From Candidatus Aenigmatarchaeota archaeon (lineage in GTDB: Archaea; Aenigmatarchaeota; Aenigmatarchaeia; GW2011-AR5; WALA01): 7,982 nucleotides of DNA. A model generated the notes under the pieces. That model searched no databases. It worked only from the letters and a program-made list of their open reading frames with translations, and was not told the origin of the DNA. How positions within the stretch are numbered: position 1 is the stretch's first letter; every line of letters begins with the position of its first letter. A program made the translations under genes and the position numbers. The stretch spans positions 1 to 7,982 of the forward strand of contig WALA01000004.1 in NCBI GenBank assembly GCA_015523085.1, given 5' to 3'. Of the stretch, positions 1,713-4,164 are shown piece by piece.

Positions 1713-2315
1713 ATGGAGCTCACACTATTCGGGAATTATCTGGAAGGAAATGAGAATGAAAATGGTAAAAATAGCAATTACAAGAAGGAAATAGAAGACA
1801 TAAACCTTGGCGCTTACGAGAAATGGGAGCTCCGCGACATCTACGAAGGCCTTTCTTTCTGGACTCAGTTCGAATCGCTGAAATTCGTTCATCCAAATGA
1901 TATGATAGCGCTCGCTCTCGGATACGATTTCAAAACGGTTGGTGACTTCAGAGTGACGGATCGGACAACATGTAAAGAGATATTTAATTATTTCATGAAT
2001 GCGGGCTACGAGCGCAACAAAGAAAAGAAAAAGCATCAGCCAAAGGGAACGTACCAGAAAGATCTTGGTGAAGTGTGCAAAAAATTCGTGAATGAATTCA
2101 AAAAGGCGAAAATACCGCGAACGCCAGATGATTTGAATCATGGTGTTGATGTGTTTTATAAAGAGCGCAAAGAGAATGGTGAGACTGTATTCGAGCGCAT
2201 CCCATTCGAGCACGTTGAGATAATCATACCGAATAATATCAAAGAAATCAGAGAAGGAATCAAAGAAATGCTTCTAAATTATTATCAACGAACTACGGCT
2301 TCTCGCCCCAAATGA
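1713..2315 (+). CDS. unrecognised charged protein, about 200 residues
   Basis: I do not recognise this family. From ATG 1713 it begins MELTLFGNYL and is a soluble, strongly charged protein with no signal peptide or membrane helix. Visible parts: a low-complexity Asn/Glu/Lys stretch (about residues 12-30), a region with aromatic residues (WELRDIYEGLSFWTQF), a middle segment (about 60-90) with GYDFKTVGDFRVTDRTTC, a lysine-rich patch (NKEKKKHQPKG), and a C-terminal part that looks alternating beta-alpha and ends in helical segments. The gene looks more A+T-rich than its neighbours (about 38% G+C in two 60-base samples counted by hand) and uses more A/T-ending codons, which could mean a different origin. 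It has its own leaderless promoter. It overlaps the convergent permease-methyltransferase gene by 23 bases, so its last seven residues are coded opposite that gene's C-terminus. Confidence 0.75.
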   Translation: MELTLFGNYLEGNENENGKNSNYKKEIEDINLGAYEKWELRDIYEGLSFWTQFESLKFVHPNDMIALALGYDFKTVGDFRVTDRTTCKEIFNYFMNAGYERNKEKKKHQPKGTYQKDLGEVCKKFVNEFKKAKIPRTPDDLNHGVDVFYKERKENGETVFERIPFEHVEIIIPNNIKEIREGIKEMLLNYYQRTTASRPK

Positions 2316-4164
2316 ACCAATAGTGCGTGAACCTTTTGCGCTGCCCTTCTATGTGAACGTTGTACCCGGCTTTCTTGAACAAATTGCGAACAGTTTCCTC
2401 GTTCTTCAAATACGGCTCGCACGGGAAGAAGAAGCTCTTTCCAAATGCGAGGAACGAGAACTTTCCGCCGTGCTTAAGATACTTCAAAAGGTTCTTTATC
2501 TGTTCAACGGGGTTTTCCGTGTGCGATAATGTTGACACGGAAACTATGGAATCAAAGCTGTTCTCCGGAAATTTCGTTATCTCGCCGTCTTCGTGAAGGA
2601 GTATGACGTTTGAAAGCGTTTTCTTTCGGAAGATTTTCTTCGATATTCTCGCGAGCTGGTTCTTTGAAAGGTCTGTCGCTACAACGCGCCCGCGCTTCCC
2701 GACTATCAGCGAGAGCTCAAGCGTCGTAAGTCCACTTCCAGCGCCGAAATCGAGCACGGTGCTACCAGGCCGCACACCAGCATTCTTTATGACCTTCATC
2801 TTTTCCTCTTCGCCGTACCATATTGGGAAGAACTTGTCCCATACCCAAGAAAAGTTGTCAAAGAATTTTCCCACGAACTTCTTGTCGCTGTAAAGCTTTA
2901 TGATGAGGTAAAACGGTATGCCTATGAACACGAAGTCGGCATCCGTCATAAGTATACTTAATGAATTAGACGAGTGCCTGAACCAATAGAACATGATGAG
3001 TATGTTGAAGAATATTATGAACCACGCGATAGGACGACCGAAGTGGAACGTGAACGTCCTTTTCGATTTGTTTGTCTTTCGCAACTTTATGAAAGCCGCT
3101 ATCACAAACGTGTACAACGTTATTTCGAGAGGAAGTAGTATCTCAAGAAGGTACTTGTAATTTGCGAACCCGATTATCGTTATCACTATCGCCGATATTG
3201 TCTGGAACAAAATGGCGTTGTAAGGAGTTCCGTATTTCTTGTGAATTTTCGAAAATTGCGTTATCATCGTCTTGTCGCGCGCCATGGCGTACAGGAGTCG
3301 CGGTGACGTTGTTATGTTCCCGGCGACCGTTCCGATAAGCGTTGAAAATATTATTATTGAGAATAAAAATTGCAACGACTTTGGAAATATTCGTTGTACA
3401 ATTAAAAGTATTGGCGTGTCGGACGCCGCAAATTTACTTATGGGCATCACGCCCATGGTGACGAAAACAAAAGCTATGCTCATAACAACCGTGAATATTG
3501 TGGCCCATACGATCACCTTTGGAAACACGTATCGCGGATTCTTGACCTCTTCGGACAAATAAGTTGCGGATTCCCATCCGAAGAAAATCTCGTATATGAA
3601 AAACGTGGCCATCATTATTTTCGAGATGTCGAGTTCAAACGGAAAAAGATTAGAAAATTTCATCTGGAACGCTGATGGAATGGCCACGGTCAGCAGCGCA
3701 AGTATGGTCGCAAACCCGAATATGAGAAGCATCTTTGAGCTCCACTTTATGCCACGGTACGTGACGTAGTTCAAAATGAGAATTATGGAAATGGATATCA
3801 CACCGTACACGAGCATGCTCGCGTGGGGGAGCAGATAATAGAGCGCTCCGACTATGAGCATCGAAATGACTATGTTGAGTATCATCCACGACATCCACCC
3901 GACCGTGAATCCCCAGAATTCTCCAAACGCCTCCTTCGTATACTCGTACGCGCCGCCGGCGTTTGGATAGAGCGATATGAGCTCAGCAAATATCATCGAT
4001 ATGAATATGGATACCGTGCCGACGATTGCCCACGAGATCAACGATGCCGATCCCGCGTACCTCGCCCCAATGGCCGGTATGAAAAATATGTCCGTTCCCG
4101 CGATTATGTTGACTACTAGGAAAAACAAGACGAATGGTCCAATTTCTCTTTTCAGCTTGCTCAT
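2293..4164 (-). CDS. APC-family amino acid permease fused to a SAM-dependent methyltransferase
   Basis: One continuous 623-residue frame carries two domains. Residues 1 to about 425 form a 12-helix APC-superfamily transporter. Helix 1 has the unwound-helix region NIIAGTDIFFIPAIG, helix 2 is followed by the ELISLYPNAGGAYEY motif, and around 193-215 lies WESATYLSEEVKNP, a typical APC signature. After helix 12 (about 409-424) comes a short linker, then from about 440 a class I methyltransferase. It shows motif I VLDFGAGSG (470-478) for SAM binding, the strand-2 acidic residue in VVATDLS (494-500), and FDSIVSVSTLSH (537-548). With 12 helices both termini should be cytoplasmic, so the methyltransferase faces the cytosol. 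The start at ATG 4164 follows GGAGTG (4173-4178), which overlaps the RNase Z stop region; the upstream in-frame TTG at 4185 is disfavoured. It is the last gene of the small-membrane-protein/RNase Z operon. Neither the transported substrate nor the methyl acceptor can be read from the sequence. A lost stop codon joining two adjacent genes is the main alternative. Confidence 0.9.
   Translation of the reverse strand: MSKLKREIGPFVLFFLVVNIIAGTDIFFIPAIGARYAGSASLISWAIVGTVSIFISMIFAELISLYPNAGGAYEYTKEAFGEFWGFTVGWMSWMILNIVISMLIVGALYYLLPHASMLVYGVISISIILILNYVTYRGIKWSSKMLLIFGFATILALLTVAIPSAFQMKFSNLFPFELDISKIMMATFFIYEIFFGWESATYLSEEVKNPRYVFPKVIVWATIFTVVMSIAFVFVTMGVMPISKFAASDTPILLIVQRIFPKSLQFLFSIIIFSTLIGTVAGNITTSPRLLYAMARDKTMITQFSKIHKKYGTPYNAILFQTISAIVITIIGFANYKYLLEILLPLEITLYTFVIAAFIKLRKTNKSKRTFTFHFGRPIAWFIIFFNILIMFYWFRHSSNSLSILMTDADFVFIGIPFYLIIKLYSDKKFVGKFFDNFSWVWDKFFPIWYGEEEKMKVIKNAGVRPGSTVLDFGAGSGLTTLELSLIVGKRGRVVATDLSKNQLARISKKIFRKKTLSNVILLHEDGEITKFPENSFDSIVSVSTLSHTENPVEQIKNLLKYLKHGGKFSFLAFGKSFFFPCEPYLKNEETVRNLFKKAGYNVHIEGQRKRFTHYWFIWGEKP

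Follow-up and report, generated by a model that had tools for sequence, protein, structure and literature searches.

The genomes of DPANN archaea are very small, and these organisms are believed to rely on partner cells; little is known of how they take up nutrients and control that uptake. The carriers closest to the gene described here have the APC fold. The cation-chloride cotransporter NKCC1 combines this fold with a cytosolic C-terminal domain; we know of no SAM motif in cation-chloride cotransporters. Among the amino acid carriers are AdiC, PotE, YjeH, BasC and the SLC7 light chains; the gate residue is aromatic in AdiC and PotE, presumably Trp201 of TM6 as the proximal gate in the case of PotE. 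In AdiC the proximal gate is Trp202, and a Leu in its place has a strong effect on arginine uptake, whereas the APC carrier GadC has Leu at the gate, according to a study of these carriers (PMC4970712), so that an aromatic gate residue is not universal in the family. KimA, a c-di-AMP-binding K+/H+ symporter of the KUP family, has a cytosolic alpha/beta domain after TM12; this domain resembles phosphopantetheine adenylyltransferase, and a ligand on it traps the carrier via an intracellular loop (PMC10284832). In this study, we describe a gene of the phylum Aenigmatarchaeota in which an APC carrier is continued after TM12 by a cytosolic methyltransferase domain, in place of the adenylyltransferase-like domain of KimA, and in which the gate residue is an acid instead of the aromatic residue of AdiC and PotE. 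No description of a carrier-methyltransferase architecture was found in the open-access PMC literature, within which the statement of an earlier sequence-only reading, that no such system is described, holds.

The window, a stretch of 7,982 nucleotides from contig WALA01000004.1, carries on its minus strand, the sequence-only reading having named no strand, a single uninterrupted frame of 623 codons, running from an ATG at position 4164 to a stop that ends at 2293, without internal stops; frame 1 of the plus strand is interrupted by stops over the same interval. The product matched both Pfam AA_permease_2 (residues 9-395, E 1.1e-46, 160.1 bits against a cut-off of 27) and Methyltransf_11 (residues 471-571, E 1.2e-15, 58.3 bits against a cut-off of 21.2), which bears out the sequence-only reading of a permease and a methyltransferase in one chain. 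The AlphaFold2 model (mean pLDDT 91.9, pTM 0.87) consists of 12 membrane helices, counted by eye, and a compact Rossmann-like domain. The 12-helix APC transporter read from the letters was thus recovered, with a LeuT-type fold, and the SAM motif VLDFGAGSG reported as intact was located within the methyltransferase domain. Motif I and the acid at the end of strand 2, Asp498, which we take to be a SAM ribose ligand by class I precedent, place this domain among the class I methyltransferases. The features of the gene are listed in Table 1.

Table 1. Features of the carrier-methyltransferase fusion gene, in window coordinates
Feature	Position	Strand	Evidence
APC carrier-methyltransferase fusion gene, 623 codons and stop	2293..4164	-	frame, Pfam, homologues
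APC carrier half, residues ~4-430, 12 predicted membrane helices	2875..4155	-	PF13520 at 9-395; model helices; superposition on LAT1, y+LAT1, AdiC and BasC
Asp25 in TM1 unwound motif (GTD here, GTG in most relatives)	4090..4092	-	alignment
Glu192, acid at the outer gate of the carrier, aligned with AdiC Trp202 and PotE Trp201	3589..3591	-	alignment
Glu198, aligned with AdiC Glu208 and PotE Glu207	3571..3573	-	alignment
Asn283, aligned with AdiC Trp293; Asn in the window lineage, Trp in most relatives	3316..3318	-	alignment
Carrier segment 284-303 (TM8 inner half and start of TM8-TM9 loop)	3256..3315	-	co-variation scan
Connector, helical in the model, residues 428-461; WY at 449-450 is a clade A signature	2782..2883	-	model secondary structure
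Class I methyltransferase domain, residues 462-622	2299..2781	-	Pfam, model, structural matches
SAM motif I VLDFGAGSG, residues 470-478	2731..2757	-	sequence; G474 in 86/86 clade A
Asp498, acid closing strand 2, putative ligand of the SAM ribose	2671..2673	-	conservation
Post-strand-5 segment, residues 574-587 (FGKSFFFPCEPYLK), methyltransferase acceptor side	2404..2445	-	branch-specific signature

Of 1039 homologues, 120 were listed, and 119 of these have both domains, the remaining one being labelled partial by its source; in addition, a 98% identical protein was found on a separate contig, WALQ01000032.1, in a separate assembly; these two observations exclude chance or a chimera. At 80 named loci, 78 matches extend to residue 618 or beyond, and the two exceptions are truncated by the end of their contig. 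Full-length fusion relatives occur in 30 of the 156 genomes searched in the Aenigmatarchaeota, and relatives at E<=1e-80 in 109 of 371 genomes from the phylum of a Woesearchaeota genome. A set of 213 distinct fusion proteins, not counting the window itself, was drawn from the homologues listed together with the loci retrieved, with matches required to span profile positions from below 20 to above 600 and identical last 300 residues counted once. The search for both domains in one chain, proposed in the sequence-only reading, therefore returns more than 200 such proteins from two archaeal phyla. Homologues consisting always of two separate genes, which the same reading had considered, were looked for as well, and the homologues proved to be one gene: no split gene was found among the fusion relatives in the genomes searched in either phylum (at most eight candidates per genome in the window's phylum and three in that of the Woesearchaeota). 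In the window's phylum three fusions are cut at contig ends (G005, G061 and G068) and in G010 a single frame was found in two pieces. Ten matches in the Woesearchaeota phylum do not span the profile; eight lie at contig ends by their coordinates (ends confirmed for four), one (G266) is full length at its own locus, L137, and one runs into a stretch of N (G511). The dN/dS values of the two halves are equal (0.026 and 0.025), indicating purifying selection on both. For an assembly or gene-calling artefact joining two adjacent genes no evidence was found, and against it stand this equality and the recurrence of the fusion across separate assemblies and 213 distinct proteins; it has a negligible chance of being the explanation, and is refuted by the homologues, the separate contigs and the genome searches in both phyla.

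The carrier half superposes on LAT1, y+LAT1, AdiC and BasC; the fusion is 17-24% identical to the LAT1, AdiC and BasC chains. With TIGR00905, the basic amino acid/polyamine antiporter model of the AdiC/PotE type, it scores 106.9 bits, below the cut-off of 409.05, and the aromatic proximal gate in TM6 that marks this type is replaced by Glu192. This position holds E or D in 211 of the 213 fusions and Q in two, against F, W or I in all 26 APC paralogues from the same phylum without a methyltransferase, with E or D in 0/26 (20 better-scoring non-fusion matches and six with other C-terminal parts); the aligned residue is W in AdiC, PotE and YjeH. Same-phylum carriers with CBS-like or Usp-like C-terminal domains, named by reading, belong to the same carrier family and likewise end in a cytosolic domain, but this domain differs from that of the fusion and the gate position is Phe or Ile. 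In the carrier tree the fusion carriers form one group (45/45, support 0.333). The acid at the gate (Glu192), a second one below (Glu198) and Asp25 of the window lineage (Gly in most relatives) suggest that the carrier likely handles a cation or a cationic amine, and not an ordinary zwitterionic amino acid.

The structural matches of the methyltransferase half are generic, including 3dh0 of Aquifex (TM-score 0.70), phosphoethanolamine N-methyltransferases, RebM and the phosphatidylethanolamine methyltransferase 8ys9. A Rossmann core, motif I and an acidic end of strand 2 are common to it and the small class I methyltransferases (3dh0, UbiE/Coq5, ArsM and phosphoethanolamine methyltransferases), but scores stayed below the cut-offs of the UbiE/MenG quinone methyltransferase model NF001240 (56.1 against 378 bits) and of the ArsM models NF008823 (38.9 against 263) and NF041536 (52.8 against 575). 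No close free-standing relative was found with the domain alone, which gave four weak matches, and with the domain alignment the free-standing proteins among 57 listed reached at most 89 bits. The two exceptions, P0125 with Pfam domains of the carrier and P0126 from a contig of 1102 bases, look like pieces of fusions. Neither query returned a close free-standing relative that would name the methyltransferase substrate, and the gene neighbourhood at the 80 named loci indicated no substrate pathway; among neighbour clusters, named by eye, a Dph2-like gene occurs at 25 loci and the rest at 13 or fewer, including a Na+/Ca2+-exchanger-like gene at eight and an RNase Z-like gene at six. RimK-like and RimB-like genes lie beside some Woesearchaeota clusters and are absent from the window.

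Conservation of the SAM site differs between branches, for which the class labels are rough, 22 proteins being left as 'A?' and class D counted with B. In clade A, to which the window protein belongs, G474, D498 and S500 are present in 86 of 86 proteins, and W449, Y450, F574, G575, S577 and P581 are each shared by no fewer than 80% of a set of 92 sequences. D498 is found in 75 of 88 class B and 5 of 17 class C proteins, and G474 is retained in one of the 17 class C proteins. The acceptor side differs by branch (FGKS, DYDK, IAPT), and class B, like the window, has a hydrophobic FFFP/FFxIPN segment following strand 5. On these residues, the domain of the window may transfer methyl groups from SAM.

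The acceptor of such a transfer could be the cargo itself, an imported amine being methylated on emergence by the tethered enzyme and thus trapped in the cell. The SAM site of clade A, which is invariant, its conserved signature on the acceptor side, a fold matching small-molecule methyltransferases (3dh0, phosphoethanolamine N-methyltransferases, RebM) and an acidic carrier site that would suit an amine are in keeping with this, as is the acceptor segment being the last aligned stretch (residues 584-587) in 10 of 50 structural matches, all of them SLC7 light chains aligned in their C-terminal part. We nevertheless regard this vectorial methylation as rather unlikely, given that the gate is near-constant while the acceptor side varies by branch, that class C has kept the fold with eroded SAM motifs, and that co-variation revealed no specific link. 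In 179 of 194 sequences (class C and two cut copies dropped), the partial correlation between the carrier substrate site and the acceptor side was 0.007 (null mean -0.089, sd 0.079), a value reached or exceeded by 110 of 1000 random sets. This negative result is weak because domain exchange would itself erase co-variation. The top 20-residue carrier segment for acceptor-side co-variation was 284-303, weakly so, with segment values of at most 0.25 read without a null; for the TM8 segment 264-283, beside the substrate site, co-variation was equally high on the SAM side.

Disagreement of the carrier and methyltransferase trees in at least three places shows that carriers within the family have swapped methyltransferase domains. 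The methyltransferase of the window groups with those of L023 and L025 (support 0.94, 50-51% identity), their carriers being only 32-36% identical, whereas P0006, P0009 and P0014 have carriers 47-49% and methyltransferases 45-46% identical to those of the window. Further conflicts, with support of 0.97, place P0086, P0088 and P0090 with L022, L032 and L122, and P0098 with L027 and L029. These conflicts (support 0.94-0.97) led us to reject a single ancient fusion passed on by vertical descent alone. Such exchange would also suit an enzyme merely held at the membrane and acting on a target other than the cargo, for instance a lipid or a membrane protein, with the carrier mainly as an anchor or with a separate function. 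The hydrophobic FFFP/FFxIPN stretch described above and the match to 8ys9 point the same way, but a mere anchor would be expected to decay, and here the carrier is the better conserved half, with a specialised site; this arrangement is improbable. Mean identity between branches is 48% for the carrier and 35% for the methyltransferase (64 versus 29 of 119 sequences, 26 unassigned), for groups set by the motif in the post-strand-5 segment, on which account the comparison was not used for conservation of that segment.

The explanation that we tentatively prefer, at somewhat short of even confidence, is that the methyltransferase half is a cytosolic SAM-responsive control domain of the carrier. 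The domain likely docks on the inner face of the carrier, where it would promote or prevent transport; binding of SAM or SAH near residues 470-500 would shift its seating against the cytosolic ends of TM8 and TM12, in a manner analogous to c-di-AMP on the cytosolic domain of the APC-fold K+ carrier KimA. To judge from its conserved residues, the domain may in addition be catalytically active in the window's branch. Of the two mechanisms offered by the sequence-only reading, SAM as a signal fits the family somewhat better, in view of a near-invariant gate beside a changing acceptor side, exchanged domains, eroded SAM motifs in class C and the null co-variation result, and vectorial methylation drew no support from the co-variation test. 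The better conservation of the carrier between branches also favours control. That further APC carriers from this phylum have CBS or Usp domains (by reading) at their end is also counted for control. Against it, class I methyltransferases that serve only as sensors are rare, the invariant SAM site and acceptor-side signature of clade A are what an enzyme would show, and the segment values of co-variation given above are small. The structural parallels are loose as well, with rmsd of 11-14 across both halves: KimA entry 8b70 aligned over both (491 residues, rmsd 13.2, 15% identity), two other KimA entries over the membrane part only, and NKCC1 entry 9c0e with 515 residues over model residues 3-620 (13% identity, rmsd 12.8). 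KimA/KUP and cation-chloride cotransporters were found by structural alignment only, at 11-16% identity, and were absent among 39 sequence matches at E<=1e-5.

Class C, a Woesearchaeota branch, has an added voltage-sensor domain and eroded SAM motifs on a retained methyltransferase fold. Purifying selection still acts on its methyltransferase (dN/dS 0.053-0.104, three pairs), which together with the voltage sensor is counted for control; in two of these pairs, the methyltransferase is less constrained than the carrier (0.083 versus 0.047; 0.104 versus 0.024), which speaks against a control function. At locus L048 a class B and a class C protein are neighbours. A more elaborate version, which we consider quite improbable, is that of a SAM/SAH-gated cation carrier whose active Woesearchaeota copy and a sister subunit with voltage sensor and decayed methyltransferase would form a complex reading both voltage and methylation potential.

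The SAM supply of the window's genus bears on both signal and cargo. No SAM synthetase of the archaeal (PF01941) or bacterial (PF02773) type was found in either of its two genomes, 81% and 94% complete, so that a control domain there would respond to SAM taken up from outside, a point against the control reading. The carrier might itself import SAM for a cell unable to make it, the attached domain using or sensing it: both genomes encode the SAM-dependent fibrillarin, and Asp25 and Glu192 in the substrate site of the window lineage could suit a sulfonium. Both genomes are incomplete, and among the 156 genomes of the phylum a synthetase of either type is present in 23 of 31 with the fusion and 83 of 125 others (G005, G061 and G068, with cut fusions, placed among the latter). 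SAM import is thus rejected as a general explanation in the window's phylum and, in the absence of a phylum-wide pattern, is kept as a minor and very improbable alternative for the window's genus.

A fusion family spread over two phyla, with a gate residue of its own, constitutes a testable family linking transport to methyl metabolism. If the methyltransferase half is a sensor, this would be the first carrier known to us to read SAM directly; if it is an enzyme acting on the cargo, it would be, as far as we know, the first case of vectorial methylation.

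The permease and methyltransferase proposed from sequence alone to share one polypeptide were confirmed as a single minus-strand frame in which both Pfam domains were matched, and the SAM motif VLDFGAGSG was located at residues 470-478. The contig belongs to a genome of 431,682 bases (65 contigs, estimated 81% complete). A 207-codon plus-strand frame, for which Pfam gave no match above cut-off, runs tail to tail into the fusion gene and shares 23 bases with its 3' end. AlphaFold2 modelling of the fusion protein from an alignment of 119 sequences gave a mean pLDDT of 91.9 and a pTM of 0.87, with no stretch of three or more residues under pLDDT 50. 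The three connector helices that link TM12 to the Rossmann core (428-437, 439-449 and 452-461) had block means of at least 83, so in the model the two halves do not look as though they are held by a floppy linker.

Coordinates of the fusion gene, its parts and associated features (L numbers, genome loci)
Feature	Location	Strand	Remark
Fusion gene	4164 (ATG) to 2293 (last base of the stop codon)	minus	623 codons
AA_permease_2	residues 9-395		Pfam, E 1.1e-46
Methyltransf_11	residues 471-571		Pfam, E 1.2e-15
Carrier segment	residues 284-303		inner TM8 and following loop
Carrier segment	residues 404-423		TM12
207-codon frame	1692-2315	plus	
Class C genes	L048:5928-8252, L075:6094-8424, L089:7925-10255		voltage-sensor APC carrier with eroded SAM motifs in its methyltransferase domain
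Small free-standing voltage-sensor-like proteins	L048:8259-8822, L075:8827-9381, L135:3263-3868		beside class C genes
RimB-like/RimK-like region	L048:34-1472, L139:1661-3093, L140:1823-3264		only L048 pair scanned
Non-fusion APC carrier	L025:32-1360, L026:3476-4762		adjoins fusion gene, opposite strand

Homologues encoded as two separate genes, named earlier as grounds against the fusion, were not found in the genomes searched: both domains were present in 119 of the 120 homologues listed among 1039, and the exception (490 residues, labelled partial at source) stops shortly past motif I. The closest homologue among those listed was 98% identical; its contig, a separate one of 16.2 kb, carries the name Candidatus Aenigmatarchaeota. 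At 78 of 80 named genome loci the match extends to at least residue 618; the remaining two leave contig ends. The suggested search of archaeal genomes for chains with both domains recovered the full fusion in 30/156 genomes of the window's phylum (E<=1e-20), with one more carrying a single-frame fusion detected as two pieces and three cut at contig ends. In a sample from the phylum to which one Woesearchaeota genome belongs, a match was found in 109/371 genomes (E<=1e-80), and the ten rows that fell short of the full profile trace to contig ends, to a run of N or to the scoring. An assembly or gene-calling artefact is ruled out by the 98% copy on a separate contig and by full-length fusions in two phyla. 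Purifying selection between the window and its congener was equally strong on both halves (dN/dS: carrier 0.026, methyltransferase 0.025). Class B-like fusions also occur under the names candidate division LCP-89 bacterium (L060), Methanosarcinales (L090) and Euryarchaeota (L098); since L060 shares a Dph2-like neighbour with archaeal loci, these records are likely mis-binned archaeal contigs.

When the carriers of 45 fusions were placed in a tree with 26 non-fusions and three E. coli references, they formed one group with low support (0.333). The carrier and methyltransferase trees conflict. The window's methyltransferase clusters at support 0.94 with those of loci L023 and L025, to which it is 50-51% identical, but the carriers of these two loci share only 32-36% identity with the window's; for proteins P0006, P0009 and P0014 the values are 47-49% for carriers and 45-46% for methyltransferases. 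With two further conflicts (support 0.97), these trees indicate that methyltransferase domains have been exchanged between family carriers, with the pairing retained. Non-fusion APC carriers adjoin the fusion gene in two genomes of one genus.

Position 192 aligns with Trp202 of AdiC, Trp201 of PotE and a Trp of YjeH, all from E. coli, whereas 211 of 213 distinct fusions have Glu or Asp there and two have Gln. Among 26 same-phylum APC carriers without a methyltransferase, the equivalent residue is Phe in 21, Trp in four and Ile in one. According to PMC4970712, AdiC Trp202 is the proximal gate that shuts over substrate, a change to Leu has a strong effect on the uptake of arginine, the Trp is kept in AdiC, PotE and CadB and tied to cationic substrates, and GadC has Leu. 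Glu198 of the fusion aligns with AdiC Glu208, and position 283 with AdiC Trp293, being Trp in most fusions and Asn in the window's lineage, which has Asp25 where most fusions have Gly. With so acidic a site, a cation or cationic amine is a candidate substrate. Other same-phylum APC carriers bear, by reading of their sequences, C-terminal paired CBS-like (L113, L115, L116) or Usp-like (L118) domains, placed as in the fusion but of a different kind.

In the METHYLTRANSFERASE half, G474, D498 and S500 were unchanged in 86/86 clade A proteins (the branch including the window), and W449, Y450, F574, G575, S577 and P581 were each kept by 80% or more of the 92 sequences compared from that clade. A working enzyme is thus quite possible, as clade A keeps an apparently working active site. 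Predicted alone (pLDDT 91.0), the domain is closest among solved structures to small methyltransferases: 3dh0 (TM 0.70), phosphoethanolamine N-methyltransferases, RebM and a phosphatidylethanolamine methyltransferase. The fusion protein did not reach the UbiE and ArsM NCBIfam cut-offs, and free-standing relatives are remote, so homology does not name the methyltransferase substrate. After strand 5, most clade A proteins have an acceptor-side segment of FGKSF type; in classes B and D it is of DYDKFF type, and in one sub-branch it reads IAPTITTH.

The window's genome (G000) and its congener (G084) yielded no SAM synthetase, whether archaeal or bacterial in type; both encode fibrillarin. The gene content suggests that cells of this genus may depend on imported SAM. 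Phylum wide, the fusion as a general replacement for SAM synthesis was rejected, since 23/31 fusion genomes encode a synthetase, against 83/125 others.

Class C proteins of Woesearchaeota have about 760-790 residues, some 150 of them additional at the N-terminus. A profile of this part, built from 16 class C sequences and three small neighbouring proteins, gave 61 solved-structure matches, of which the 60 listed were all voltage-gated channels, the best being KvAP (E 2.3e-7); the small L048 protein scored under the Ion_trans cut-off. The SAM motifs of class C are eroded (G474 retained in 1/17, D498 in 5/17), and purifying selection on the domain persists: three pairs gave dN/dS of 0.083, 0.104 and 0.053 (carriers, in the same order, 0.047, 0.024 and 0.065). 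At L048, L075 and L089 a class B fusion precedes the class C gene by about 45 bases, and a third fusion gene follows further downstream. RimB-like protease and RimK-like ATP-grasp ligase genes lie upstream of fusions at several Woesearchaeota loci.

Vectorial methylation of cargo and SAM-level signalling had both been offered as roles; from family comparisons we lean towards control of the carrier, while methylation of cargo drew no support from co-variation. Control is favoured because the carrier is better conserved between branches (mean identity 48%, against 35% for the methyltransferase), because the gate is near-constant while the acceptor side varies and domains swap, and because class C retains the fold despite eroded motifs. 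Moreover, once overall divergence was accounted for, differences at the carrier site failed to predict those on the acceptor side (partial r 0.007, reached by 110/1000 matched random sets; null mean -0.089, sd 0.079). Among 20-residue carrier segments, whose values carry no null, acceptor-side co-variation peaked at 284-303 (0.247) and 404-423 (0.241), and segment 264-283 (TM8) was equally high with the SAM side (0.252). The cytosolic domain, with ligand bound, would act on the carrier as in KimA, a precedent for ligand control of an APC-fold carrier in which, per PMC10284832, an intracellular loop touches c-di-AMP on the protein's cytosolic domain and transport becomes trapped. Loose alignments across both halves of the model (rmsd 11-14) were obtained with several NKCC1 entries and with one KimA entry out of three.

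The open-access PMC literature yielded no paper on an APC-methyltransferase fusion, in agreement with the initial view that no such system was described, nor any on an APC carrier joined to a voltage sensor. NCBI names, where given among the homologues listed, read amino acid permease; some JGI names give both halves, so the architecture is already in databases, though without a description found in that literature. As far as searched, the cytosolic methyltransferase domain is unreported for this known carrier fold, whose gate is rewritten as well.
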